From: Vitis vinifera
Taxonomy: Eukaryota; Streptophyta; Magnoliopsida; Vitales; Vitaceae
Direction: 5' to 3'
Length of the DNA: 64,000 bases
Assembly (NCBI RefSeq): GCF_030704535.1
Contig: NC_081822.1
Location: forward strand, 36,168,001 to 36,232,000
The notes under the pieces are model-generated. The model ran no database searches, had not been told where the DNA came from, and worked only from the letters and a program-made list of their open reading frames with translations. A program made the position numbers and the translations under genes. Below are positions 3,900 through 62,468 of the stretch, in pieces (the stretch's first letter is position 1; the number at the start of each line of letters is the position of its first letter).

Positions 3900-6526
3900 T
3901 CAGCTCACAAAGTTCCAATCAAATGGGTTGTCCCATTCACCAAAAGAAAAATTGTTTCTCCCCATTCTGCGTAAAGCAATATGGAGTTCTCTGACCTCAT
4001 AATTGTTTATATGGGTTGATCCTTCACACCTGAATGACGGAATATGTGAAGCAAGCTCCAATATCTCAGCATCACTCTCCTCAAAAAGAAAGCAGTCCCT
4101 CACGTCTAACCTCACAAGCTCTCTGCAGCACCGCAGTATCATCACTAGATTCTTCTTCTCAATGGTTGCTCCTTTTAGAGACAAGTGCTTAATCTTTGGC
4201 AGATGCGTGACAATGGCGGACGCTTCATTGGCCCCCACGTAGGACTTTGGAAGCATTAGCTGAAAGAAATTCTTGCAATGAAGACTGATTTGAATGAGGA
4301 TCTCTGGTACATAATGGGGGGCCCACATCAGTCTCAATACTTCAAGATTTTTCCAGTTTCTGATCAGCTTGGGAATGACACTTGCATTTTTGAGAGATAG
4401 ACAACCATGGAGACCGAAAACCTTTAAAGCAGGACACCTGAAAAAACACAAAGAAAGAGAAACTCTACTGTTTTAAAAAACGGGAAACTGCAAAAACATA
4501 TTTGATAATTTTTTTTTAATAGGATATAGTTTTTTGAGAACTTGTAATGTTCTGAAAATGTATCTTATTTGTTTCTTAAAGGATATTTAAAGAAATAATT
4601 GTATGAAAATAAAGCATCATGAAAAAAAGTTGCTTTTAAGAAATATTTAGAAACAGAGAAAATAAGTTGAAAACATTCCAAATTCCCAAATCGACTTTTC
4701 TTTTAGAAAACATTAAAGAACTGTTTCTTGAAACAACTCCCCAAAACTATTTTTGGAGAATTGTTTTTGAAAATGTTCCCAAATAGGTCTTATTATTTTC
4801 CTTTGATAGAAAATTTTAGGTAACTTACTGCTTAGCAGCATACTCCAACCCTTCTTCACTGCAGCGGTAGGGCAGCATAAGAGTAGTAGCACATCCACTG
4901 CTGCGATTGACGATGAACTTTATGAATGAAGTGATAGGAATTTCATTTTGATATTCCTTCATTATCCTGTCTGCAAATGCCTTGAAGTTTTATGGAAAAA
5001 TAAGGTGTTGCCAGCACATAGGATGGAGGGTTGCTTTATACCGTAACTTGCATACCAAGGGTACATCCAACAACAGTGTCTCCATTCCCACTTTCTGAAA
5101 TACATTCACCAAACAGTTGATGTTTAACTCCTCCCACTTTCTTCGATCCCCAATCTGAGAAGATGAAACATCTAGAGTTATTTCTTCTTCATGGATTAAA
5201 ATTCAATATAAGATGTATCCTATAAAATTATATTTATAGATTCATGGCATTATAAGAAAGTTACGTGTTTGGGACTCCACACACTTACGAAGTTGATATG
5301 ATCAGGATGGACTAAGCCTTGGACAGTTTTCCACCAAGATTCTTCGGCTAGAATTTGAAGAAAGCAAAATAAGGAAATAAAAACAACCTTAGTGAGTTTG
5401 GAAGTGTTTCTATTTGGAGTAGTTTTAGTTAGAAGTGTTTTCTATAAAAGAGTTTTTGAAACAATCACCCATCAAGTATTGTTTACGCGGAAAGCACTAC
5501 AAGTGCTTTTCAATTTTTTTTTTAAAAATGTTTTCTAAATTTTTTCTAAAGGCTGGTTTTTCTTTTCCAAAATCGCTTTTTTTTAGTAAAAGTACTATTT
5601 TCTAAGGCCAATGACAAATAGAGAGAGTATTTGATAGTATTTAAAACTCTTTTATCATAAAAATTGCTTTTAGAGAAAACTAAGATGTTTAGTAAAATTC
5701 AGAAAACATTTCTAAAATGTTGAAAAATCACTTATAGTACTTCTTGAAAAAACATTTGATAAATGATGCTCTTAAAAATATTTTTGAAGAACATATTTTA
5801 ATTAAAAACATTTCAAATGGAAACAACTTCCTAACACACCCTTAACTTCCATATGGTGGTAATTTTAGAAAACGTTTCTAATATTTTTAACACTTCATAT
5901 TTTTTATCTTTCAAATATTAGAAAAACTAGAAACGTTTTTTGGAATTACTGAAAAATACACTTTTAATGTTATAGAATTCATTTGCTTTTGCGTGTTTTC
6001 ACTAAAGGAAAAATTGCATGCATAAAAGAACTAATAACGTAAATATATATACCAGTACTTTGTTGTCGTCAATTTTGGGAGAATCATTTGAGAGCTTGGA
6101 TGAAGTCTCCCCATTATTTTTACCATCATCACCCACCTCCACTGCATTAGTCTCTTTTGTTAGCAAAGCAGTTGCTTCAAGTACCCGTAAGGGTGCTGGT
6201 TCTTCCTCCAAATATATTTCTACACAGTACACTCCAGATCTGCTGGGCACTTCCAACAAAAGTTCCACCCCCTCATCATTCTTTATAGGGATCGGTTTAT
6301 ACTCCTGTGAAGAAATAGGATATCTGCATATGATGTTCAACTCAAAATTCTGTCTGTCGATGGCGGTGGTTGCATAGATTTTGTCCAACAATCCAGCATA
6401 GGTAGTTCCATGGAACACCTTAATAGGCATGACATTCACCTTGGCACCTTCGTAAACAACATCATTCGATTCCTTTTTCACTCTCCCGTTCCAATAGCAA
6501 TTCACTGCAACACCCGTCACAGCCAT
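3900..6526 (-). pseudogene. F-box/LRR copy A with MULE-type PB1-like exon, interrupted by a nonsense codon
   Basis: Three coding exons can be placed: 6526-6053 (PB1-like, 158 codons, phase 0), 5154-4829 (F-box) and 4437-3900 (LRR). All have GT-AG borders and phases that join in frame. The first exon carries YWNGRVKKE, the TTYAGLLDKIY stretch, ICRYPISS, YKPIPIKNDE and CVEIYLE, as in copies D and F. The F-box exon reads KWEELNINCLVNVFQKVG, then LLDVPLVC and MCWQHLIFP. The next codon is TAA (4990-4992, minus strand), where paralogues have GAA or GAG. The frame resumes correctly afterwards, so this is one point change, not a splice artefact. The LRR exon is open to its TAG. Unless the stop is a sequencing error, the product would be PB1 plus half an F-box. 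The LRR sequence is closest to copy E (HLPKIKHLSLKG in both). Confidence 0.85.
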
Positions 6527-7021: not shown

Positions 7022-7110
7022 CTGAAGGTGATGAGAAATTGAAGCAACAAAAGCAGTGGGGAGAACTCAGAGGAGAGAGAGAGAGAGAGAGAGTAAAGTT
7101 AATCAAATCA
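7022..7110 (-). other. non-coding first exon of copy A
   Basis: On the minus strand the exon ends in CTTCAG followed by the donor GTAAGT at 7021-7020. The sequence TTGCTTCAATTTCTCATCA matches the leader exons of copies B, C, D and F. It contains a (CT)n run at about 7073-7095. The leader intron runs to the PB1 exon start near 6526. The 5' end is estimated. Confidence 0.65.
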
Positions 7111-10211: not shown

Positions 10212-11104
10212 CTAAGGTTTGGTAGGTGATGATTGTTGATGTTCCATGAAAGGATGAAACATATGGATGTTATAATATATTTTATTGTGGATATAATTGC
10301 ATAGGGTGCTATTGCATTGGAAAAAAGAAAAAAAACCTAAAGATATTCTTATAATTTTCTTCATGGTATAAGGAAATCTAATAATATAAAACATATCAAC
10401 TTAGGAAATATTCCATATAATTTTTTTACAAAAAAAGAATTTATACCAATTTGGAATTTAAGATACTTTCCATCAAAGGAACTATGGGAAAAACAAATTC
10501 TCAAGAAAGATATATCCATGTATTCTCATTCAATATAACTTACTACATAAGAGGCACAAATGTTTACATCCCTCTTTAAATTGTGTAATATCTCATCATG
10601 TTAATTTTTTTATGAGAATTACTTTCCATATGCTAATTCTTCTTCTTCGAAAAAAAAAAAAGGCTCAATGCTCAATGCCCATAAGCTCCACCAAAGAATG
10701 CTTAATTCATGATTGATCTTTTACATTAAGATATCAAGTAAACAAAGTGGAAGACAATTACCAATAGAAGCCAAAAGTCAAATATAATTATATGTTTAGT
10801 TGAAAGCAATATTTATAAAGACATTACACAAAAGTCAAACAATATTAGCATATTTTGCAGTCTAGGTAGAGCAGCATTAACTCTTCAGAGTCACTAATAA
10901 TTTGTCTTACATTACATAAAGAGGCACACGAGGGAGTTTTTCATAGCGCTCTAGCTTATTAACGAGCCCACCTGAACCTCAAATGAAATCACAAACCGTC
11001 AAACAAATCATCATAATCGAATAAATCATAAACACAGTCATCGTGATTAATTTGATCGTAGAATAGCTCATGGTCAAGCCTGCGCTCACGCTCAAAAATG
11101 GTTC

Positions 11105-11968
11105 CTATCTAATGCGCGACCCTTCACACATGAATACAGGAATATGTGAAGCAAGCTCCAATATCTCCGCATCATCATCACAAAAACCAAAGCACTTCCT
11201 GACGTCTAAATAAACAAGCTTTTTGCAGCCCTGCAATATTATCACTAGAGCTTCCCTCTCAAAAAATGTGTAAGGTATATCCAAGTACTCGAGTCTTGGC
11301 AGTGAGGCCACGATGGCTGATGCTACATATTTCCTAATGCCGGCACGTCGAGCTGATAGCCAAATGAAGTTGTTGCAGTGAAGACCGATCTGTGGTAGGA
11401 CAGATTTCATGTAAAATAGCCCTACATGAAAAACCGCATCCAAACCCTTTAATCTGGGACACCTACAAATCACAATTCACTTCATATGAAGCCACTTCTT
11501 GAATTTTGGAAAATTTTAAGATCCACAAGTACTGCTCTGTAGAACTATAACTTAAAGTCAAAATGATGATGTTGTTCAATATAATAATGTAAAAGCCAAG
11601 ATGCCTTACTCGTTTGCAATATACTCCAGTGCCTCCTCGGTGCAGTGTCTGGGGAGTTTGATGATTGTGGCACATCCACAGCTACGGTTAACTATGAACC
11701 TCATGAATGCAGTGACAGACAAGTTTTCTTGATATGTAGTCACTAACCTCTCTGAAAAGCCCCTGTCGGGGCTGTATTTTCCCCATATATCGTCAGGTTT
11801 GATGTATTCAGGAAAAATAAGATGCTCCCAGCACTGAGGTTCGCGGCTCGCTTTATACCAAGGCTTGCATACAAAGGGAACATCCAACAACAACGACTCC
11901 ATTCCCACTCTTCCAAACACATTCACTAAAATATCCATGTTTAACTCCTCCCATTTTCTCTCCTCCAT
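11105..11968 (-). CDS. F-box/LRR protein, copy B (short, no PB1 exon)
   Basis: There are two coding exons, 11968-11610 (ATG directly after a TTAG acceptor; donor GTAAGG) and 11462-11105, joined phase 2 to give 238 residues. The F-box is at residues 4-50: KWEELNMDILVNVFGRVG, then LLLDVPFVC and CWEHLIFPEYI. The LRR part has IGLHCNNF, LPRLEYLD, ILQGCKKLVYLDVRKC and AEILELASHIP. Compared with copy C it lacks about 25 residues at the start of the LRR exon (the ISKWKSLE segment) and stops early at GSRIR because of a TAG. F-box/LRR proteins of this type are expected to bind SKP1 through the F-box and a target through the LRRs in an SCF ligase. The missing repeat and tail may impair it. The open frame is otherwise intact, so expression decides between gene and decaying copy. 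Confidence 0.75.
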
Positions 11969-15074: not shown

Positions 15075-15272
15075 AATGAGGTTGATGGATAGAAGCTTGA
15101 ACCTCAAATCGATCCAACTCAACATGGGGAATTTGATTATCGATTAAGATTTTTATTCCATCAACTAAAATTAAACATTTCAAAAGCACAAAAATACTAA
15201 GAAAGAAGAAAAAAAATTGCAACAAAATTTGATGAATGAAGAGAAAGAAGAAATGCAAAATAATGGATTTAC
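14519..15272 (-). other. rest of the leader intron of copy B
   Basis: Holds a (TA)n microsatellite at 15042-15069. A short stretch near 14830-14860 reads HYGPIPLEPQLRIDDI on the minus strand. Its counterpart in C reads HYRPIPLESQLKLDDI. It vaguely recalls the YKPIPIKNDEAVELM stretch of the PB1 exon and could be its last trace, but the resemblance is short. Confidence 0.4.
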
Positions 15273-15410
15273 CTAAAGCTAATCTGTGAGAAACTGAAGC
15301 GGCAGCAAGAGTTGTGGGGTGATCTCAGTGACCAAGGAGAGGGTAAAGGTGATAAAATCAGTGAGGCTTGTCTTCGTTGACTTGACTAAAGACCAAAGAG
15401 AGAAGACTGC
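15273..15410 (-). other. non-coding first exon and proximal promoter of copy B
   Basis: Minus strand: a CTTTGGTCTTTAGTCAAGTC box (about 15400-15381), then leader CCGCTTCAGTTTCTCACAG ending CTTTAG with donor GTAAAT at 15272. The same box and leader occur in C, D and F (and the leader in A), which fixes this as the first exon although it lies 3.3 kb from the F-box exon. With the PB1 exon absent, the leader is expected to splice straight to the ATG at 11968. Confidence 0.6.
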
Positions 15411-20424: not shown

Positions 20425-21459
20425 TTAAATCATAAACGCAGTCCTGTGATTAATTTGATCGCAGAATAGCTCATGATCAAGCTTGAGGTCATGCACATAA
20501 CTGGATTCTATCTCAGGTATTCTGATCGACCCTTCCCACATGAATGTAGGAATATGTGAAGCAAGTTTCAATATCTCAGCATCAACACCATGAAAACCCC
20601 AGCAGTCCCTGATGTCTAAATGCACAAGCTGTTTGCAGCCCTGCAATATCATCAATAGAGTTTCCTTCTCAAAGGATGCCCCATGTAGATCCAAGTACTT
20701 AAGTTGTGGCAGTGAAGTGACGATGGCCGATGCTTCATCTTTCCCAATGTAGGTTTCTGGAGCTGATAGCCAAATGAAGTTGTTGCAGTGAAGACCGATC
20801 TCTGGTAGTACTTCCTTCATGTGAAATTTCCCAAGTCTCATCATTTCCAAACTTTTCCACTTGCTTATAAATTGTGGAATAATAGCTTCGATAGACATAT
20901 TAAAATCACCCACATCCAACACCTTTAATCTGGGACACCTGCAAGTCACAATTCACTTCGAATGAAGCCACTTCTAGAATTCTACACCATTGGAAGTTTG
21001 GAAAATTTTAAGATTAGTAAGTACTGCTCTGTAGAACTGTAACTTAAAGTCAAAATGATGATGCTTTCAATATAATAATGTAAAAGCAGAGATGCCTGAC
21101 TGGTTTGCAACATACTCCAGTGCCTCCTCGGTGCAGTAATTGGGGAGTTTGATGATTGTGGCATGTCCACAGCTACGGTTAAGTATGAGCTTCACGGATG
21201 CAGTGACAGACAAGTTTTCTTGATATGTCATCGCTAACCTCTCTGCAAAGCCCCTGTCCGGGCTGTCTTCCTCCCCTATATCATCAGGTGTGATGAATTT
21301 AGGAAAAATAAGATGTTCCCAGCACTGAGGTTTGCGGCTCGCTTTATACCAAGACTTGCATACAAAGGGAACATCCAACAACAACGACTCCATTCCCACT
21401 CTTCGGAGCACATTCACCAAAATATCCATGTTTAACTCCTCCCATTTTTGTCCCTCCAT
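20425..21459 (-). CDS. F-box/LRR protein, copy C (no PB1 exon)
   Basis: Coding exons are 21459-21101 and 20938-20425 (phase 2 junction), giving 290 residues. The ATG sits immediately after a CTCAG acceptor. The donor is GTCAGG, weaker than the GTAAGG/GTAAGT of its paralogues. F-box at residues 4-50: KWEELNMDILVNVLRRVG, LLLDVPFVCKSW, CWEHLIFPKFI. The LRR exon has CPRLKVLD, ISKWKSLEMMRLG, IGLHCNNFIWLSAP, LPQLKYLDLHG, ILQGCKQLVHLDIRDC and AEILKLASHIP, then an acidic tail. The F-box should dock SKP1 in an SCF E3 ligase and the LRRs select the target; no target can be named. Skipping the weak donor would end translation at VANQSGISAFTLLY, giving an F-box-only protein of 130 residues. Confidence 0.82.
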
Positions 21460-21855
21460 CTGAGACTACACATTAAAATTCATATTATTTTCAAATTTTC
21501 CTACACTTACTATCGATTCCAGCATTCCAAAAGTGCCCACCTAGTGATTGTTGAAGATCCATAGATAACCGAAGAAAATTTTCCTCTCATATTTTTTTCT
21601 TTTTTTTTCCTTCCCTCAAATGTTTCACAACCCTAAAATAGCCTTTATGTATATATTACAGAGAAAAGTGGTCAAGGAATAAAGCTATACATAGGAATTA
21701 AAGAACCTTAAAGTAATGACCATAAGATAACTGGATTTTGTCTGAATATCATCCAGTTTCAACTGAGATTCTAAAGGAATTGGTCTATAATGAATCTGAA
21801 AACCAAAAAGAAAGAAAACAAAGAAAGAAGACAGAGAAAAATGCAGGAAAATTTG

Positions 21856-21930
21856 ATGAATGAAGAGAAAGAAGAAATGCAAAATAATGGATTTAACTGA
21901 AGCTAATTTGTGAGAAACTGAAGCAGCCAG
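21856..21930 (-). repeat. duplicated leader-exon end of copy C with dead donor
   Basis: Repeats the 3' end of the leader exon and the start of its intron (GCTTCAGTTTCTCACAAATT...CTTCAG), about 105 bases downstream of the working copy. Here CAG is followed by TTAAAT instead of GTAAAT, so the donor G is lost. Confidence 0.7.
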
Positions 21931-28178: not shown

Positions 28179-31100
28179 TCAAGGTATGTTATTGTCAGCT
28201 GCAATCTGCTTTGAGGAGTTGAGGCTGTGATTTTCTAGGTCTTCTGCATAGGAACCATGTTGGGAAGTGGGTGATAGAGATGGGTTATAAGAATACCATC
28301 TAGACCAAAAGAGATAGTTGAAGAAGTTGATGAGACTTAGAGCAGCTAGCAACCAGTAGAAAAGGTCTAACCGGTCTTTGTTGAGATCGTTATCCCCGAG
28401 CCAACCCCGACTTGAGGAATGGCTGGAGGTGATTCTATTGACTAGAGAAACAAGGAGGGAGCTCAAAAAGAAACCGAACGAGTACGAGCAGTATGTCATG
28501 GCAGTTAGAAATGACTGCATCCCTTCCACAGACTGTTTGTAGAAGAACTCTATTAGCCCTACTGCTGTGAACATCTCAGAGAGGCCAAAGATAAGAAACT
28601 GAGGGGCAATCCAGAAGATGGAGAGGATTCTGTTTGAATCCAAAGCAGAAGTTCTTCTCTTTTTCTCTACCAGTGCAGCTGAAACCATGGACAGAGTTGC
28701 AACAAAGAGTCCAATGCCAATCCTTTGGAGAGGTGAGATTCCAGAGTCCCTTCCTGTGATTTTTCGGGCAATTGGGACGAAGACAGTTTCATACAGTGGG
28801 ACTAGAAAGATAAGCATGAGGTAAGGGATGGATTGAAGTGAAGCTGGAGGGATTTGGAAGCCTTTTATGAGTCTGGTGTTCATGGCACTTCCTTGTTGGA
28901 CCGAGAACGTTTGGAGCTGAGCTAAGATGGTATTGAAGATGATGGTGCAGGCGAATATAGGAACAACCGAGATGATTATCTTCACTTGCTCAACCTGTGT
29001 GACAGTGCATAGTCTCCACGGGCTCTCACTCGTCTGCGTTCCATCTTGAACTTTGATGCAGGCCTTGTCAAGAAACCTATAGTTTTATTAAGATGATGAT
29101 GAGAAATAAAGGCCTCAATGGTAACATATAAGAACAATTTCATAACTTCACATTTATTCGTAGCTAAACTTTCAAGATCCCATGATTGATTCAGTATAGG
29201 CATGCCTTCAGATCTGTATCCCACCTGAACTTTTCAGTATGGAGAAGATTTCTGACATTAGATGAGGCCAAAGCTTGTTCTGGCAACTGGCTTCCATGGA
29301 GCATCCCTGAATTTGAAGGACAGATTTGCTTTCTCTTTGTGATTGCAGCTACAAAAACCTGAAAAGGGATGGTGAAAAAGGGGATGAAAAAAGGAGAATT
29401 AGAATCATTACAAATGCTGACTACCATATACAATTGCTCCATTCTGATAAGAGATATACATAAAAAACTAGCTTTATGGACCACCTTGAACCATTAAGCA
29501 TATCACTAATCTTATATACTCAAAAGGAGCTTTTACTAGAATACTTTCACCAATATGTTCTTTATTCAGCAAAAGAAAAACAGATCAAATCATTCCATGA
29601 TCAGCTAAATCATAAAGTCCAATCCTTTAAAAAATCAATACCACTTTTGATTGTCCCAGAATGAACCAACACATAAAACTCTTAACCTCTAAGAAAAATT
29701 AATTAGCCTCTAATATACCAGTCAGAATGATCTAAGAAAATATTCCAAGAAAAAAAACCTACTTAGCATAATGAAATGTTTAGTATATAGCCCAGAAGAA
29801 AAAGCTAAAAGCAAAGAAATTAAGTTAGAGATAAATTACTTGAGCAATTGGAGTGAAGATACTTCCACGGGGGGGTTTGTTCATATAAACAAGGGTACCG
29901 GAAATCAAGCTGATCAAGCCCATAGCCATGGCTGCAGCTGAGACTCCGAAACCGACATCCATCCCAGAATGCGTTTGGACCCAGACAAGAACTGTGAGTG
30001 CAACAAGCTCCCCCATACAGAAGGCGAAGTAGGCGGCATTGAAGTAAGAGGAGAGCTTCTTGGACTGCTTGGAGTCCTCCTTTCTGAACTGGTCCGCCCC
30101 ATGAGAGATTATGTTGGGTTTCAGGCACCCACTTCCTAAAGCCACCAAGTAGAGTGCCAGAAAGAATATCAAAGCCTTGTAGCCCTTGGCCTCTGAGCAA
30201 TTGTCTTCATCCAAGACCATGGTGCAGTGGGCTGGCCTCAGCTGGGGGAGATGAGCTTGGACTGACAACAGTATAAAACCCTAGAAATTCAGTCCAAAAC
30301 CAGTTGATTAGTGAGAAATTCTATGGACTTTATATAGAATCTAGGGAGTGGGATGACAATATTAACATAAGTACAAGCTTGAGAAGAATTTAATATTTGG
30401 TGAATTGAGGTTTTTTTTTTTAAAAAAAAAAAAAAAAAATCATTTTGCCTCAAGAGACAAGAATCTAGGAAATGCAAGTTGCAGATAGTGGGTTGAGATA
30501 TATGAATGATTAAGCAGATGTATAGTGAGAAAAAGGAAGTCATGTCAGACGTAGAAAGACTTACAGAGAGCTCCACAAACCCAAAGATCAACATGGTCCA
30601 AAAGCTCCCTAGATAAGAATCTGAGAGGAACCCACCAAGGAGGGAGAGGAGAAACACAGTCCCTATAAAGTTTGTGACTATGTTTGCTGACTTTGACAAA
30701 GGGAAGTGCATATCATTGAACACATATGTTATGAGATTGTTCCCAACTGCAGCAATAGCCATCATCTCAAATGCCTGAAGACCTGAATCACCCACCAAAC
30801 ATTAATCAATCAATATATATATATTCTCAAAACAAGTATATATATTATTTAAAAAAAAAATAACTGAATGAGCACTACCCACTACAAACACTTTATCAAG
30901 ATCACAGCAAAATTTCGAAATTCACCTCCATTGCTCCCATCATTGAGTTCATACTATAATACCCACTTCACTAATAAAAGCATAGAATAGTGCTAGCTAC
31001 CAATGAAATGAACTGCAAGAGTTGGTTAAAGCAAATTTTATAGAGCTAAACTGCCAACCAAAAACTAGGTGCTTTCTCTTTCTGTGGGTAACCATGGTCT

Positions 31101-48540: not shown

Positions 48541-48676
48541 GCCAAGTTATCTCACTGTGGTCTTTAGTAAAGTCAGCAAAGTATAAAGAATTTGTGCCCT
48601 ATAAATTACAAAGAGAACTCTTTCGGCTCTCCCTCCAACTCTCAAACCATTTGCTTCAGTTTCTCATCAGCTTCAG
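48541..48676 (+). promoter_or_regulatory. proximal promoter and non-coding first exon of copy D
   Basis: TCTTTAGTAAAGTCAGCAAAGTA (48561-48582) matches GCTTTAGTCAAGAGTCAGCAAAGTA before copy F and the CTTTAGTCAAGTC box before B. CTATAAATTA near 48600 is a candidate TATA box. The leader TTTGCTTCAGTTTCTCATCAG ends CTTCAG at 48676, followed by donor GTAAAT. Confidence 0.65.
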
Positions 48677-48869: not shown

Positions 48870-51802
48870 ATGGATGCGACCAGTGTGGCAGTGCATTGTT
48901 ATTGGAATGGGAGAGTGAAAAAGGAAAGCAAGGATGTTGATTATGAAGGTGACAATGTGAGCATGATGCCTATAAACCTCAACTATGGAACTACGTATGC
49001 TGAATTGTTGGATAAAATATGTACAATCACAGGCATTGACAGATTTGATTTTGAGTTTAACATCGTATGCAGATACCCTATTTCTTCACGGGAATATAAA
49101 CCCATCCCAATAAAGAATGATGAGGCTGTGAAACTTATGTTGGAGGTGCCAATCAGGTCTGGGGTTTCTTGTGTAGAAATATATTTGGAGAGTAATGCAG
49201 TCTCCTTTCCTGTTGAAGCAAACGCAACAGCAAATGTGCAAACATCTCCTTCGATTCGTTTGCTAGAACAAGAGAGTAATGCAGTCTATGGAGTTAATGA
49301 TGGTTTAGCTGATAAATTCCTGTCCAAGGATGGCTATGGTAACACATCTATACGTAGGCTTTTGACTTGCATTATTGTTAGAAACTATGGGGAGGCATCA
49401 TCTAAGAATTCAAACGATTTTCCTACATATGATGACAAGGAGGTATATTACTAAATGATGTTCTTGTTAATTACTTTGTTTTCATGCATATCAATGACAT
49501 TAAATTGTTCATGCATTTTTTTTCTCAATAGAAATAATCCCAAAATAAATGGATTTCATCATATTAAAAGTTGGTTGGACATATAAAGTATAAAAAACAT
49601 TTTTGAAAAAAAATTATATGTTTGATAAAATTTAGAAAATACTTTAAATAAAAATACTATTAAATGTATTCTAAATAATTTTAAATACTTTTGATCAAAC
49701 ACATCACTCTAGAAATTAACCTGGAGCTCATGAATGAATTAAGAAAATGCAAAGTGGGAGAGGATCATTTGATGCCATGAAAAAAGTATATGGTATTGGA
49801 AATCATCCCAAATTCCTAACTATTTATATTTGTCTCATAAAAAATATTGCATAGAATATCTCTTAAGTTGTTGATATGTCATCATAATTTTTATTTTTTT
49901 TGTATAGAATAAAAGATGTTAATAAAAATTGAGGAAAAAATTTATAAGATGGACACGAGTATATGAAGATTATACATGATAGATAGAAACATGGGGAAGA
50001 GTGTAAAACATCCAGTGGAATAAAATGGCTGATGGTTTATGATTTAGAGAATAAATATAAGAAATATGAAAACATATAATATTTCAAGACCTAATAGTTA
50101 CATATGATTTTCGTTATCCTCTATAATATTTTATATATTATAATATAATGATATTTCTCATCTACAAATATAGGTATGATTGGTCAAATTATGATAAATC
50201 TTTGCATGCAATTGATTTATATATATATATATATATATATGTTAACACGGTTGCTTTAAAACTTTTATTGGCACAACATAAATGATTTATCATATGTTAA
50301 TTTTTATTTCATGATAAATATCCTCTCAAATTGTAAAGTTTGAATCAGTTTTGTTATAGTTTTTTTTATATAATGAATGACGAATTTACTCCTATTATAT
50401 ATTTAACATTTTTATGTTTTAAGGTTTTCTTTTTAAAGTGTATGATCGCAATTGAGAAATATTTTATTTTTTTTTCATAATTTCGCTATTGTAGTCCTTT
50501 TCATTTCTTTTGATTAATAGATTTTTGAGTATTGGTATACTCTTAGGCGGGATCACATTGATTATTAAATCATGTTTTTTCTTTTTTTTTTGACTCGTGT
50601 GTGGTTTGGTTAATATGTACAAATTTGAAATTTTCCATGCTCAGATGGGGGGACGAAAGTGGGAGGACTTAAACATGGACTGTTTGGTGAATGTGTTTCA
50701 CAAAGTGGGGATAGAATCGTTGTTGTTGGATGTTCCCCGTGTATGCAAGTCATGGCATAAAGCGAGCCTCGATCCCAAGTGTTGGGAGTCTCTCATTTTT
50801 CCTGAAGACATCAGGTGTAAAATATGGGACAACGGTCGCTTTTCAAAAAGGTTAATGATGGAATACCAAGAAAATTTCTCATCCACTGCGTTCATAAAGT
50901 TTGTAATAGACCGTAGTCGTGGACGTGCCACTGCACTTGGGCTCCCTGGCTGCTGCACCGAAGAGGCACTGGAGTATGCTGCTAACGAGTAAGTAATCTA
51001 AATTTATCTATCAAAATAGTGCAGATAAACAAAAAAATACACACGCACAAGTAGAGGCAAAAGCTCAAAAGTGTTACAATTTTTTTATGACTGCCTCTAT
51101 TATATTTTGAGGTTAATTTGGTTTTTATCCAGTGGTTCTATGAAGAAAAACCAGGGGTAATCAACGACCATTTCTCGGATTTTTACATGCATTATTCTCA
51201 TCTGTCTTAGCATAGGTTGCTTTTCCTCCTTTTCCTTTACATCCTCCGCATTGCCAACAAAAAAATAAAAAAATAAAAAGAATTATCCTCTTGCAGTGTG
51301 AAATCCTAACGAAATCATTCTTTCCTGCAGGTGTCCTGAACTAAAGACTTTGAAATTGAATGCTGATCTACCTAACAAACAACGAAGAATTATCCCAAGG
51401 CTGATACCAAAGTGGAAAAATCTGGAAGTTTTGGTCCTCGACAGGAGACATAGGATGAGGGGAATTCTAGCCCAGATTGCCCTTCACTGCAATAACTTCA
51501 TGAGGCTATCAGCTCCAGGAATCAATGTTGGCTACTGGGAAGCATCAGCCATTGTCACCTTACTACCAAACCTTAGGTACTTGGTTCTAAAGGGGGCAAC
51601 CATTCGGCAGAAAAGGGTAGTGATGATCTTGCAGGGCTGCAAACAGCTTGTGCATTTAGATGTCAGGGGCTGTACTGGTTTTGATGAGGATGATGCTGAG
51701 ATTCTGGAGCTTGCTTCTCATATTCCTTCCTTCATGTGTGAAGGTTCGCGCCGTAATGGTCACTTTCCCTTAAAATGTCTGTATGAACCTTTGCCACATT
51801 GA
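48870..51802 (+). CDS. PB1-like (MULE transposase N-terminal type) - F-box - LRR fusion protein, copy D
   Basis: Coding exons are 48870-49442 (191 codons, phase 0), 50645-50988 and 51331-51802, giving 462 residues; all borders are GT-AG. A TAG acceptor three bases before the ATG joins the leader. Residues 8-110 form the PB1/ubiquitin-like domain: HCYWNGRVKKE, YGTTYAELLDKI, ITGIDRFDFEFNIVCRYPIS, YKPIPIKNDEAVKLMLEV and CVEIYLE. Known MuDR-family transposases begin with the same pattern (tyrosine-rich strand, RYP, PLPI.NDEDV..M.EV, EIY.E). The DNA-binding, catalytic and SWIM parts of a transposase are absent. An 80-residue Ser/Asn-rich linker follows, then the F-box (KWEDLNMDCLVNVFHKVG, LLLDVPRVCKSW) and the LRRs (IALHCNNFMRLSAP, LPNLRYLVLKG, ILQGCKQLVHLDVRGC, AEILELASHIPSFMCEGS). 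The C-terminus is altered relative to F. Predicted role: SCF substrate receptor with an added interaction domain. Confidence 0.85.
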
Positions 51803-55164: not shown

Positions 55165-55275
55165 ATGGAGGGATGGAAATGGGAGGAGTTGAATAGGGAC
55201 TGTTTGGTGAATGTGATTTGGAAAGTGGGAATAGAATCGATGTGGGATGTTCCCTCTGTATGCAAGTCTATGTAG
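55165..55275 (+). pseudogene. F-box exon fragment (37 codons)
   Basis: Reads MEGWKWEELNRDCLVNVIWK, then VGIES, WDVPSVCKS and a TAG. It matches the first third of the F-box exon of D and F with a 3-base deletion and then loss of similarity. The acceptor AG before the ATG is missing (CATATG instead of CAGATG). It cannot make an F-box protein. Confidence 0.8.
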
Positions 55276-56238: not shown

Positions 56239-57475
56239 ATGGATCCACAAACACAGCCGTATATGCACAGGGAATTTGGGAAATCAACAGGTTTGATGGG
56301 AATGTTGTATGCTGTAATATATCTGGCATTCGAACAAATCACTGAGTGGCTATACACGCTGCTATTGAAACAAATCAATGAGCGGGCTATACACGCTGCT
56401 ATTCAAACATCCGAAAAAGGTTATTGGCTGAGTGTTACAGACGAAAATGTGAGAAGCTATGCTTGCAGTTTCGGGAAGTGTTATTGGCTGGGACTGACAG
56501 ACTACCCCCGAAGAAGATATACAGAGAATTTAAGAAAATGTTACTTGCTCTGGGGAGACCAAAGTGGGAGGAGCTAGACAGGGACTGTTTGGTGATCGTG
56601 CTTCAAAAAGCATGACTGAAGTCATTAGTGTCCAGTGCTCCCTATGTCTGCAAAACATGGCATGAAGCAAGCCTTGATCCTAAGTGCTGGGAAGATCTTG
56701 CTTTTCCTGAACATATTGACTTAATGATGGAAGTGACGGAACGGCTAGGTGGCATTTCAAGGACTGCATTCATAAGGGCCATAGTTGATCGAAGTGGACG
56801 ACATGCTACTTCAATTATGCTGTCCAATGACTTCTCCATAGAAGCATTGGAGTATGTCAGTAACTAGTAAGTTTTGAAAATTTTCTATGAGAAGAAAATT
56901 AAGTCTTCCTTGCAATTAATTAATTAAGCTTTGTACCATTTTCCAGGTGCCCTGCCTTGAAGTCTTTGGCTCTGCATCATCCTATGGCTCACCAGAAAGC
57001 AGTTGTTATTTCAAACCAGATAAGCAAATGGGGAAATCTTGAAACAGCAACCCTCATGAGGGCCTGTCATATGAAGAAAATAGTACCCCTAATCAGTCTT
57101 CATTGCAAGAACTTTACTGATCTAAGGGCTCCCCAATCCTACATTGGGGAAGATGAAGCATCACTCGTTGTCACCCATCTGCCAAAGATTAAGCACTTGA
57201 GTTTAAAAGGATCAACCATTGAGGGGGAGACTCTAGTGATGATAATACTGGGATGCAAAGAGCTTGCGAGTTTAGACGCCAGGGACTGCACTGGTTTTAA
57301 GGCTGATGATGCTGGGATACTGCAACTTGCTTCACATATTCCTGCATTCAAGTGTGAAGGTTCCAGGGATTTTAAGAATTACAGACACAGGCTAGTCAAT
57401 GGTGTTCCACAACAAGACCTTGAAGAGGGCCATATTGATATTGAATGGGATTGCCTTTTTCATAACTTTGGATAG
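56239..57475 (+). pseudogene. F-box/LRR copy E, two nonsense codons
   Basis: Intron sequence before 56239 matches that of copy F and ends in CTCAG, but the exon that follows begins with unrelated sequence (56239-56560). This includes a locally duplicated stretch, GGCTATACACGCTGCTATT twice. F-box homology starts at about 56562 (RPKWEELDRDCLVIVLQKA). It is stopped by TGA at 56613-56615, where D and F have GGA. It resumes as YVCKTWHEASLDPKCWEDLAF and LEYVSN. At the exon end (56866) splicing to 56947 would create TAG across the junction where paralogues have AAG, GAG or CAG. The LRR exon 56947-57475 is open: CPALKSLAL, ISLHCKNF, LPKIKHLSLKG, ASLDARDC, ILQLASHIP. It is most like copy A. With two in-frame stops and no PB1 exon it is best called a pseudogene. 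Confidence 0.85.
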
Positions 57476-59705: not shown

Positions 59706-59859
59706 TGATTTGCACAGCTATCTCTCTGCATGCTTTAGTCAAGAGTCAGCAAAGTAAGAAAATGTGTGCTCCATAAAACACAAAAAGAAAACTCTCACTC
59801 ATTTCATACACTTTACTGTCTCTCTCAAAAGAGTTGCTTCAGTTGGTCATCAGCTTCAG
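59706..59859 (+). promoter_or_regulatory. proximal promoter and non-coding first exon of copy F
   Basis: GCTTTAGTCAAGAGTCAGCAAAGTA (59732-59756) is the box shared with copy D. The leader GTTGCTTCAGTTGGTCATCAG ends CTTCAG at 59859 with donor GTAATT. The leader intron runs to 60348. Confidence 0.65.
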
Positions 59860-60351
59860 GTAATTATTCCACTGTATCACAATTCTTCTTTCTCTTCATT
59901 CATCAAAATTTTGCTGCATTCACCCAATTTCTTTAACTTGGCTGCTTTCTTACCTTCTCTATTTTTTTTTCTTTTTTTTTTTTTCTGTTTTTTTCTTTTT
60001 CACTGATTTTGAAATTTTGAATCCCTAGTGTTAAGATCAGTTAGATATAGATGGGGTCCAAGCATCAATCCACCAACCTGATCATCTTTAAGGATGAAAA
60101 ATGAAAATCTGAAAAAATACAATATACATATTAATCAGAAAATGCCCAACAGAAATGGGTTTGAGAACCCAAGAGAGACTGGGTTAGGAATCTTTGAAAT
60201 CTTCGGTTTACAAGTGGAATGTGATACATAATTTCATTATTTCAAGCATAATTTCTTTATATGTTTGAAGTGTATGCATGGTTGTGTCTAAATCAATCAC
60301 CTTAGGGATACGGTTGTTTTATTCTAATTTTGTGGCTGTGAATGGTAGATT

Positions 60352-62468
60352 ATGACTGCAACTGGTGTGGCAGTGCATTGTTATTGGAACGGGCGAGTGA
60401 AAAAGGAAAAGGGCGATGTTGATTATGAAGGTGACAATGTCAACATCATGCCTGTTAAGCTCAACTATGGAACTACCTATGCTGAATTGTTGGATAAAAT
60501 CTATACAATCACAGGCATTGACAGATGGGGTTTTGAGTTGAACATCATATGCAGATATCCTATATCTTCACGGGAATATAAACCGATCCCAATAAAGAAT
60601 GATGAGGCTGTGGAACTGATGTTGGAGGTCCCAATCAGATCAGGGGTGTTCTGTGTAGAAATATATTTGGAGACTAATGCGGTCAATAAACCATTTCATG
60701 TTGAAGCAAATGCACCAGCAAATGTGCAAATATCTCCTTTGAGTCATTTGCTAAAAGGAGAGTGTAATGCGGTCTATTCAAACGATTGGGAGACATCATC
60801 CAAGCATTCAAATGATTCTCCTAAAAAAGACGATAACCAGGTATATCGCTAATTGTGGTTCTTATTAGTTCATTCTATATAGAACAACGTTTGATTTGTG
60901 CATACAATTTTTTCTCAGGGGAAAATAATCCCAAAAACAAATGAATTTAAAATCTGAAGGTGCCTTAGGCCTTGACTGATCACATCACTCTTGTGATCTG
61001 GAGTCTAGGCAAAATGACTTGTTCCATGAATGACTTTGGAAAATTCAGAGGTGGGGAAAGATAATTTTATGCCATGAATCTGAGTACATAGGACCTATCA
61101 TATGTTAATTTTAAGTCCATAATAAATATACAACTCTGAATTATTCATTGCTCAGATGGAGGGACGAAAGTGGGAGGAGTTAAACAGGGACTGTTTGGTG
61201 AATGTGTTTCAAAAAGTGGGAATGGAGTCAATGTTGTTGGATGTTCCCCTTGTATGCAAGTCATGGCATAAAGCGAGCCTCGATCCTAAGTGCTGGGAGT
61301 TTCTCATTTTTCCTGAATATATCGAGCCTGATGATATATGGGGGAGGGGCCCCTTTGCAGAAAGGTTTATGCTGGAATTTCAATTCTCTGTCACTGCATT
61401 CATAAAGTTTGTAATCGACCGTAGCTGTGGACATGCCACTGCACTTAGCCTCCCCATCTGCTGCACCGAAGAGGCATTCAAGTATGCTGCTAACAAGTAA
61501 GTTATCTAATGAAAATACTGACAGATACAATCTAGACAGACATGTATTTGATATAGGAGCAACTATTTATCTGCAATTTCTTTGTGATTGCCTCTAAGCA
61601 TTTCCTCCTTATTCTCTAAGTAACCATTGTGTAGCTAAGTGCCCACTGGCTTGGTTGATATCTTTCTTTCATTTGAGTATGCATAGTGATTTTGGATACT
61701 TCTTTAAAACAACCCCACTACTGGGGAATTGCAAGGGATTGAGAACAAGACTCAGGTTGGTTTTCATACCTTTAACCAGTATTCACACAGGCTTCATATA
61801 TGTTTCCAGGTTAATTTGGTTTTGTCTAGTGATGCCATGAAGAGAGAGCATTGGTGATCAACTACCATTTCTCAGCTTTTTACATGCATTGTATTGCCAA
61901 TCAAATACAATGAGTTTTCCTTGCAGTGTAGGATTCTAACTGAATCATTATTTCCAGGTGTCCTAAACTAGAGCTTTTGGGATTGAATGCTGGTCTACTT
62001 CACAAGCATTCCAGTATTATCCCAAAATTGATATCCAAGTGGAAAAATCTGCAATCGTTGGTACTTGGGAGCAGTCATGGCATGGAGGAAATCCTCACCC
62101 CAATTCGTCTTTTCTGCAGAAACTTCACAAGGCTATCAGCTCCAAAAACGAATGTTGGCAACAAGGAAGCATCAGCCATTGTCACCTCGCTGCCAAACCT
62201 TAGGTATTTGGTTCTAAATGGAGCATCCATTGAGCAGGAAAGTTTAGTGATGATATTGCAGGGCTGCAAACAGCTTATCGAGATAGATGTGAGGGACTGT
62301 GATGGTTTTGATGAGGATGATGCTGAGATACTGAAGCTTGCTTCTCATATTCCTTCATTCATGTGCAAAGGTTCGTACCTTTATGACCCCTTCGATGACT
62401 ATGAGCATACCCAAATAGATCACAATTACCGTGTTTATGGTTATGGTTGCTGTTATGATTATGATTGA
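60352..62468 (+). CDS. PB1-like (MULE transposase N-terminal type) - F-box - LRR fusion protein, copy F
   Basis: Coding exons are 60352-60840 (163 codons, phase 0), 61156-61496 and 61958-62468, giving 446 residues with a uniform frame and GT-AG borders. The exon acceptor (TAG at 60348) precedes the ATG by three bases, as in copy D. PB1-like domain at residues 6-106: HCYWNGRVKKE, YGTTYAELLDKIY, ELNIICRYPISS, YKPIPIKNDEAVELMLEV and CVEIYLE. After a 55-residue linker comes the F-box (about 166-212): KWEELNRDCLVNVFQKVG, LLDVPLVCKSWHKASLDPKCW. The LRR exon has CPKLELLGLN, ISKWKNLQSLVLG, LPNLRYLVLNG, ILQGCKQLIEIDVRDC, DEDDAEILKLASHIPSFMC, and an acidic, Tyr-rich tail rich in Asp-Tyr pairs. This is the best-preserved member and the reference for the family here. 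Expected role: target receptor of an SCF ligase with a protein-interaction module of transposase origin; the target is unknown. Confidence 0.88.

Follow-up and report, generated by a model that had tools for sequence, protein, structure and literature searches.

A PB1-like exon related to MULE transposase N-termini, upstream of F-box/LRR exons in a grapevine gene cluster

A cluster of genes on contig C18 of the Vitis vinifera genome appears to encode a family of SCF receptors, made of an F-box and SKP2-like leucine-rich repeats (LRRs), in which an additional N-terminal PB1-like exon, readable in one frame with the rest, is present in some members. Judging from the sequence, we put the probability of this reading at about 0.6. 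The window that we studied is a stretch of 64,000 nucleotides (C18:36168001-36232000), and the genome searched comprises 495.6 Mb in 21 contigs. Positions given without a contig are those of the window.

PB1-like, F-box and LRR exons in one predicted frame

The gene that we call copy F lies on the plus strand. Its conserved leader, a putative 5′ UTR exon that includes 59783-59859, ends in CAG/GTAATT. The PB1-like exon (60349-60840, with its ATG at 60352) follows, and consists of a core (60352-60672) and a linker tail (60673-60840) ending at a phase-0 donor, CAG/GTATAT. An intron (60841-61155), similar at 68% to intron sequence of a C8 F-box gene (C8a) and 78% to that of the neighboring copy E, leads to the F-box exon (61156-61496), which is directly preceded by TTGCTCAG, opens with an in-frame ATG as its first codon and is followed by GTAAGT. 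The LRR exon (61958-62468, through the stop codon) has TTTCCAG directly 5′ of it. With the predicted splicing, a phase 0 join and then a phase 2 join, the three exons form a single stop-free frame of 446 aa. The sequence-only reading of this DNA had proposed the same layout, and both the exons and the motifs it had picked out (RYPIS, YKPIPIKNDE and EIYLE) are where it had placed them.

Searched alone, the F-box exon of copy F matched the Pfam F-box family PF00646 (E 4.2e-5, 23.7 bits vs. a cut-off of 20.5), while the joined 446-aa protein scored just under the cut-off at 20.1 bits. The LRR exon matched LRR_At5g56370 (PF24758, E 1.2e-6, 28.8 bits vs. 27). When 257 residues of the F-box and LRR parts were searched together, SKP2 was matched by residues 3-228 (E 2e-4), from which a role as SCF receptor would be expected for these genes. 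Copy F shares the F-box plus LRR composition of SKP2/FBL-type and plant SKIP19-type proteins, the latter a label that may apply to it; we know of no member of either type with an N-terminal PB1 domain. The F-box and LRR families were also the only Pfam matches of the joined protein at E≤0.1, in agreement with the earlier claim that the DNA-binding, catalytic (DDE) and SWIM regions of MULE transposases are missing from it. That the PB1-like exon is a piece of a whole inserted MULE is rejected on three grounds: no transposase family matched the joined product at E≤0.1; among 116 of 141 rows for the plant mobile domain described below, none lies 0.1-8 kb downstream of a close PB1 copy on the same strand; and the inverted repeats flanking this exon in F and D are short or A+T-rich, none resembling a pair of transposon ends.

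Copy D, on the plus strand, was likewise predicted correctly to have the same architecture: the 3′ part of a leader (48640-48676, CAG/GTAAAT), a PB1-like exon (48870-49442), an F-box exon with its ATG (50645-50988) and an LRR exon (51331-51802), of which the last three join into an open frame of 462 aa. Copy A, on the minus strand, has a leader 3′ part (7022-7060), an open PB1-like exon (6059-6526) with two candidate phase-0 donors (AAA/GTACTG or CTG/GTATAT), an F-box exon (4829-5154, with its end taken from the H2 copy described below) and an LRR exon (3900-4437). As had been claimed, this copy is broken: its F-box exon contains one internal TAA and has lost the ATG, reading ATTGGGGAT directly after the AG. 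The same ATG loss is shared by H1 (C18:36140153) and H2 (C18:36154667), both on the minus strand and upstream of the window. In H1 the F-box end is shifted and the LRR part is short, leaving the gene broken. In H2, all three exons are open and the spliced product would be 443 or 445 aa long, depending on the phase-0 donor used, two being available at a distance of 6 nt. In all five close C18 copies (F, D, A, H1 and H2), the PB1-like exon is followed by an F-box and an LRR part of the same orientation.

Purifying selection acts on the PB1 core, and much less on the linker. For the core, pN/pS was 0.29 between F and D (p=1.8e-4), 0.34 between F and A (3.2e-5), 0.35 between D and A (8e-6), 0.26-0.36 in comparisons with the C8 copy C8c, and 0.40 between F and a copy on C4; the range was thus 0.26-0.40 in seven of seven pairs (p from 1.8e-4 to 6e-10), pairs that share branches and are not independent. 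For the linker, the corresponding values were 0.80 (p=0.36), 0.51 (p=0.008) and 0.61 (p=0.036) for F/D, F/A and D/A, respectively. The F-box and LRR parts, with F/D dN/dS of 0.53 and 0.69, are less constrained than PB1. The constraint on the core, taken with the adjacency of the exon to F-box and LRR exons in five of five C18 copies, argues that the arrangement goes beyond chance, and on these two grounds a chance ORF is ruled out for the PB1 exon.

What this constraint demonstrates is the importance of the PB1 protein and not its joining to the F-box, as a peptide of PB1 alone would bear the same signature. The PB1 ORF could be translated alone if the intron were retained or the transcript ended early, yielding a PB1-only protein of ~167 aa in copy F, or it could act as a uORF that limits translation of the F-box. 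Such an outcome, which we consider unlikely, would fit the PB1 frame of copy F, which stops only four codons past the donor, the nearly neutral linker in F/D, and the presence on C8 of leader-PB1 units that lack an F-box, among them one whose core is open. It accounts less well for the PB1 donor, however, which has an in-phase GT in all five C18 copies, at the end of exons whose lengths (489, 573, 468 or 474 nt) are all multiples of three, or for two C8 F-box genes, C8a and C8b, which retain the tail of the PB1 exon together with the donor. The H2 copy also stands against it. Its F-box lacks its own ATG and the gene is open throughout, so that, as read from the sequence, a whole F-box protein from H2 would need to start within the PB1 exon.

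Rather less probable still is that the arrangement is the relic of an old capture in the course of decay and that the fused form has no function. Of the five C18 genes with PB1, A and H1 have breaks in exons after the PB1 exon, two of the three C8 PB1 copies are frameshifted, several F-box paralogs are without PB1, and in H1 and H2 a Gly replaces Val87, a PB1 site otherwise invariant in a 10-row alignment. Given the breaks in A and H1 and this substitution, the A/H1/H2 lineage may indeed be decaying, and its ATG loss may reflect that decay. Functionless relics would not be expected, however, to show the significant purifying selection seen on the core in F vs. D and F vs. A, and F, D and H2 are fully open.

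Relatives of the PB1-like exon

A genome-wide search with the PB1 part of copy F, with 150 of 219 candidates scored, gave eight close copies (five on C18 and three on C8) with identities of 74-100%, a single C4 copy at 52% and at least 141 others at ≤42%. Two of these 141 more distant matches, L024 and L025, were scanned as whole ORFs and both are transposases. L024 (C14:3931944) is an 860-aa ORF with DBD_Tnp_Mut, MULE and, under the cut-off, Pfam PB1 (E 6e-4, 20.2 bits), and matches the copy F PB1 exon at 39% identity (E 9.7e-22); L025 has DBD_Tnp_Mut, MULE and SWIM. The exon had been described as typical of MULE transposases, and with an intact MULE ORF among its matches it is not unrelated to MULE N-termini. 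The homology thus stands, but the nearest relative is not a MULE: it is the PB1 of the C4 gene, at 48-55% identity, with MULE-type copies at ≤42%. The assignment to PB1 is weak for copy F. Four of 10 relatives matched the Pfam PB1 family (PF00564) at E≤1, the best at 3e-5, but copy F itself gave E 0.13 and 12.6 bits, short of the gathering score of 23.6. An AlphaFold model of the exon, made from only the three window copies, had a pLDDT of 40.8, too low to be informative about the fold. Searches of the PDB with the exon or the 10-row profile gave no meaningful match, and a search of NCBIfam gave none.

The C4 copy (C4:24837095, minus strand) is a PB1 ORF with a phase-0 GT, identified by eye, and has an ORF for a plant mobile domain (PMD; PF10536, E 3e-55) no more than 0.9 kb downstream. 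Like the fused genes, it has a candidate phase-0 donor and an AG three bases before the PB1 ATG; unlike them, its second part is a PMD and not an F-box. A reverse search with the C4 PB1 gave the eight close copies next, at 48-55%, and the remainder at ≤37%. In sequence comparisons with 150 of 219 candidates scored, the closest relative of the PB1-like exon is therefore this single PB1-PMD gene, not a transposase. To our knowledge, the Arabidopsis PMD proteins MAIN and MAIL1 have no PB1.

The pairing of PB1 with PMD is not confined to C4. Among 116 of 141 PMD rows, 59 of the 141 distant PB1 matches had a same-strand PMD 1.7-6.1 kb downstream and none had one on the opposite strand, with a mean of 0.16 under random placement; in the same rows, none of the eight close PB1 copies had a PMD match 0.1-8 kb downstream on the same strand. 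A transposase lies between PB1 and PMD in L024 and L025, the two checked, and some MULEs of this genome thus seem to carry PB1-transposase plus PMD. From this pairing and the transposases within it, the PB1 module probably originated in MULEs that combine PB1 with transposase and PMD; the C4 gene may be such a unit minus its transposase.

The transfer might also have run the other way, PB1 being a host exon taken up by transposons through transduplication, with the F-box and PMD genes holding the older form. The literature on MUSTANG B (MUGB) genes, which are domesticated MULE transposases, lends this some color: a short additional 5′ exon encodes PB1 ahead of a larger transposase exon, with transduplication, gene fusion or exon shuffling named as its possible origins (PMC3435246), and a review describes the MUGB PB1 as of unknown function and favours transduplication (PMC8616336). 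In a tree with five MULE copies, moreover, C4 and the F-box copies fall on one side (100/100); the C4 branch is long, and the tree program issued a long-branch warning. We nevertheless regard a host origin as very doubtful, given the 141 more distant PB1-like matches in the genome, the two read as ORFs being transposases, and the F-box genes on C5 and C9, which have no PB1 match nearby (both with 150 of 219 candidates scored). MUGB genes resemble the fused genes in having PB1 on a short 5′ exon before a larger downstream exon, and differ from copy F in that PB1 is followed by MuDR DNA-binding, MULE and SWIM regions instead of an F-box and LRRs.

Position in an older 5′ intron and history of the fusion

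The C18 F-box/LRR cluster extends upstream beyond the window and has related copies on C8. PB1 is absent from the paralogs N1-N6 and from copy E. Three are in the window: N5, on the minus strand, with a leader (15218-15300), an F-box exon (11609-11968) and an LRR part containing a stop (11096-11449); N6, on the minus strand, with a leader (21840-21925) and F-box and LRR exons (20425-21459); and E, on the plus strand, with a stop in the F-box (56553-57475). The window also holds, on the minus strand, exons of a POT/PTR2 transporter in 28182-30280 (PF00854, E 4e-50 for 28182-29084 and 4e-34 for 29828-30280) and, in 2-1792, a LINE-like endonuclease fragment (1031-1792, PF03372, E 1.7e-4, below the cut-off) with a reverse-transcriptase-like frame recognized by eye (2-280).

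The leader precedes the PB1 exon in all five close C18 copies and in all three C8 PB1 copies, and the same leader precedes the F-box exon in the PB1-less genes N2-N6, C8a and C8b. Only its earlier part was seen in N1 and it was not found in E; its donor GT is lost in N3 and N6. A genome-wide leader search gave 12 places, all on C18, and missed the C8 leaders detected by local blastn, so that it has no bearing on C4 and C5; at 36145353 and 36165000, two of these places, a further leader follows and no exon belonging to the first was found. In none of the five fused copies was a leader found between the PB1 and F-box exons. An acceptor-like AG stands right before the first F-box codon in 15 of 18 exon starts read, including those of the C5 outgroup and of PB1-less paralogs; the exceptions are E, a fragment at window position 55165, and C9, where an AG occurs within a purine run. 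The F-box ATG thus looks older than the fusion. With the leader 5′ of PB1, none between PB1 and F-box, and the AG before the ATG in PB1-less genes, it is probable that a 5′ intron of the ancestral gene extended up to the F-box ATG and that the PB1 exon sits within it. The PB1 ATG likewise has an AG a few bases 5′ of it in F, D, A, C8c and C4, and in the MULE copies L024, L025, L021, L023 and L028. The exon and its acceptor could have moved together; the AG of the MULEs is a putative acceptor, that of L024 being also readable as a donor.

On C8, none of the three PB1 copies has an F-box downstream within the sequence read; two are frameshifted and the third, at C8:3234377, has an open core. The F-box genes C8a and C8b, the two with their upstream sequence examined of four C8 F-box places, lack the PB1 core and keep the exon tail and donor at 75-81% identity. 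Across C8:3185001-3245000 (L014-L019) and L031, there are accordingly three leader-PB1-core units without F-box and two leader-PB1-tail-F-box-LRR genes without core, as though a single fused gene had been divided between neighbors.

Because the PB1-less C8a and C8b keep the tail of the PB1 exon, the fusion probably dates from before the C18 and C8 copies separated. In a 14-row tree of the F-box and LRR parts, the copies with PB1 fall in two places, F with D (82/82) and A with H2 alongside the PB1-less N1 and E (82/88), and a branch separating the PB1 rows from all others was present in 4% of 200 bootstrap trees; deep forks of this tree are poorly supported, and E and C9 have long branches. No PB1 match was found near the C5 and C9 F-box genes with 150 of 219 candidates scored. 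These data fit one gain and several losses. We propose a single capture of the PB1 exon, through exon shuffling with a MULE or a PB1-PMD gene as the source, followed by several losses; in the N2-N6 clade, PB1 could have been lost or could never have been present. Among the PB1-less paralogs, dN/dS for the LRR exons was 1.46 (N2/N4), 1.47 (N4/N6), 1.36 (N3/N4), 1.02 (N2/N6) and 0.95 (N3/N6), N2 and N3 being nearly identical. Values near or above 1 in most of these recent-copy pairs hint at rapid change in the substrate-binding part.

The sequence-only reading had also suggested that one gene may make two receptors, with and without PB1. This would be possible for F and D, which have their own F-box ATG: exon skipping would join the leader to that ATG and give a PB1-less receptor like the paralogs. 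It would be impossible in A, H1 and H2, where the ATG is lost, and the PB1-less genes already provide that form.

Proposed role of the PB1-like part

PB1 domains pair with other PB1 domains, and on this general ground the PB1 part may offer a surface for protein-protein docking, through which the receptor would pair with itself or with some other PB1 protein. Docking of this kind would change what the LRR-bearing SCF can reach. A parallel is the animal F-box protein FBXO7, which has an N-terminal ubiquitin-like domain and is not known to have LRRs or a link to transposons; as the predicted fusion would, it places a ubiquitin-like fold N-terminal to the F-box of a substrate receptor, a likeness of architecture. 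More speculatively, the PB1 part could be a bait derived from transposons, with the receptor pairing with MULE transposases or PB1-PMD proteins and marking them for destruction. We think such a function highly improbable; if true, it would be a host ubiquitin-ligase decoy against transposons, made from a transposon domain, kept where useful and lost elsewhere.

The claim that no described family has the PB1-F-box-LRR architecture agrees with our search, in which no paper on a PB1-F-box fusion was found in the open-access literature; subscription papers and plant protein databases were outside this search and the novelty is provisional. Domain capture from a transposon is an event of a known kind, and it is the pairing of PB1 with an F-box, in a known class of E3, that provisionally seems new. 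If transcripts confirm the fusion, this one genome would show exon capture at several stages, from donor-type transposon exons through a PB1-PMD gene and open fusions to a lineage without the F-box ATG and lineages that keep only the tail. It would also provide an F-box receptor with a docking domain of transposon type, and with it a way to test what this PB1 domain binds.
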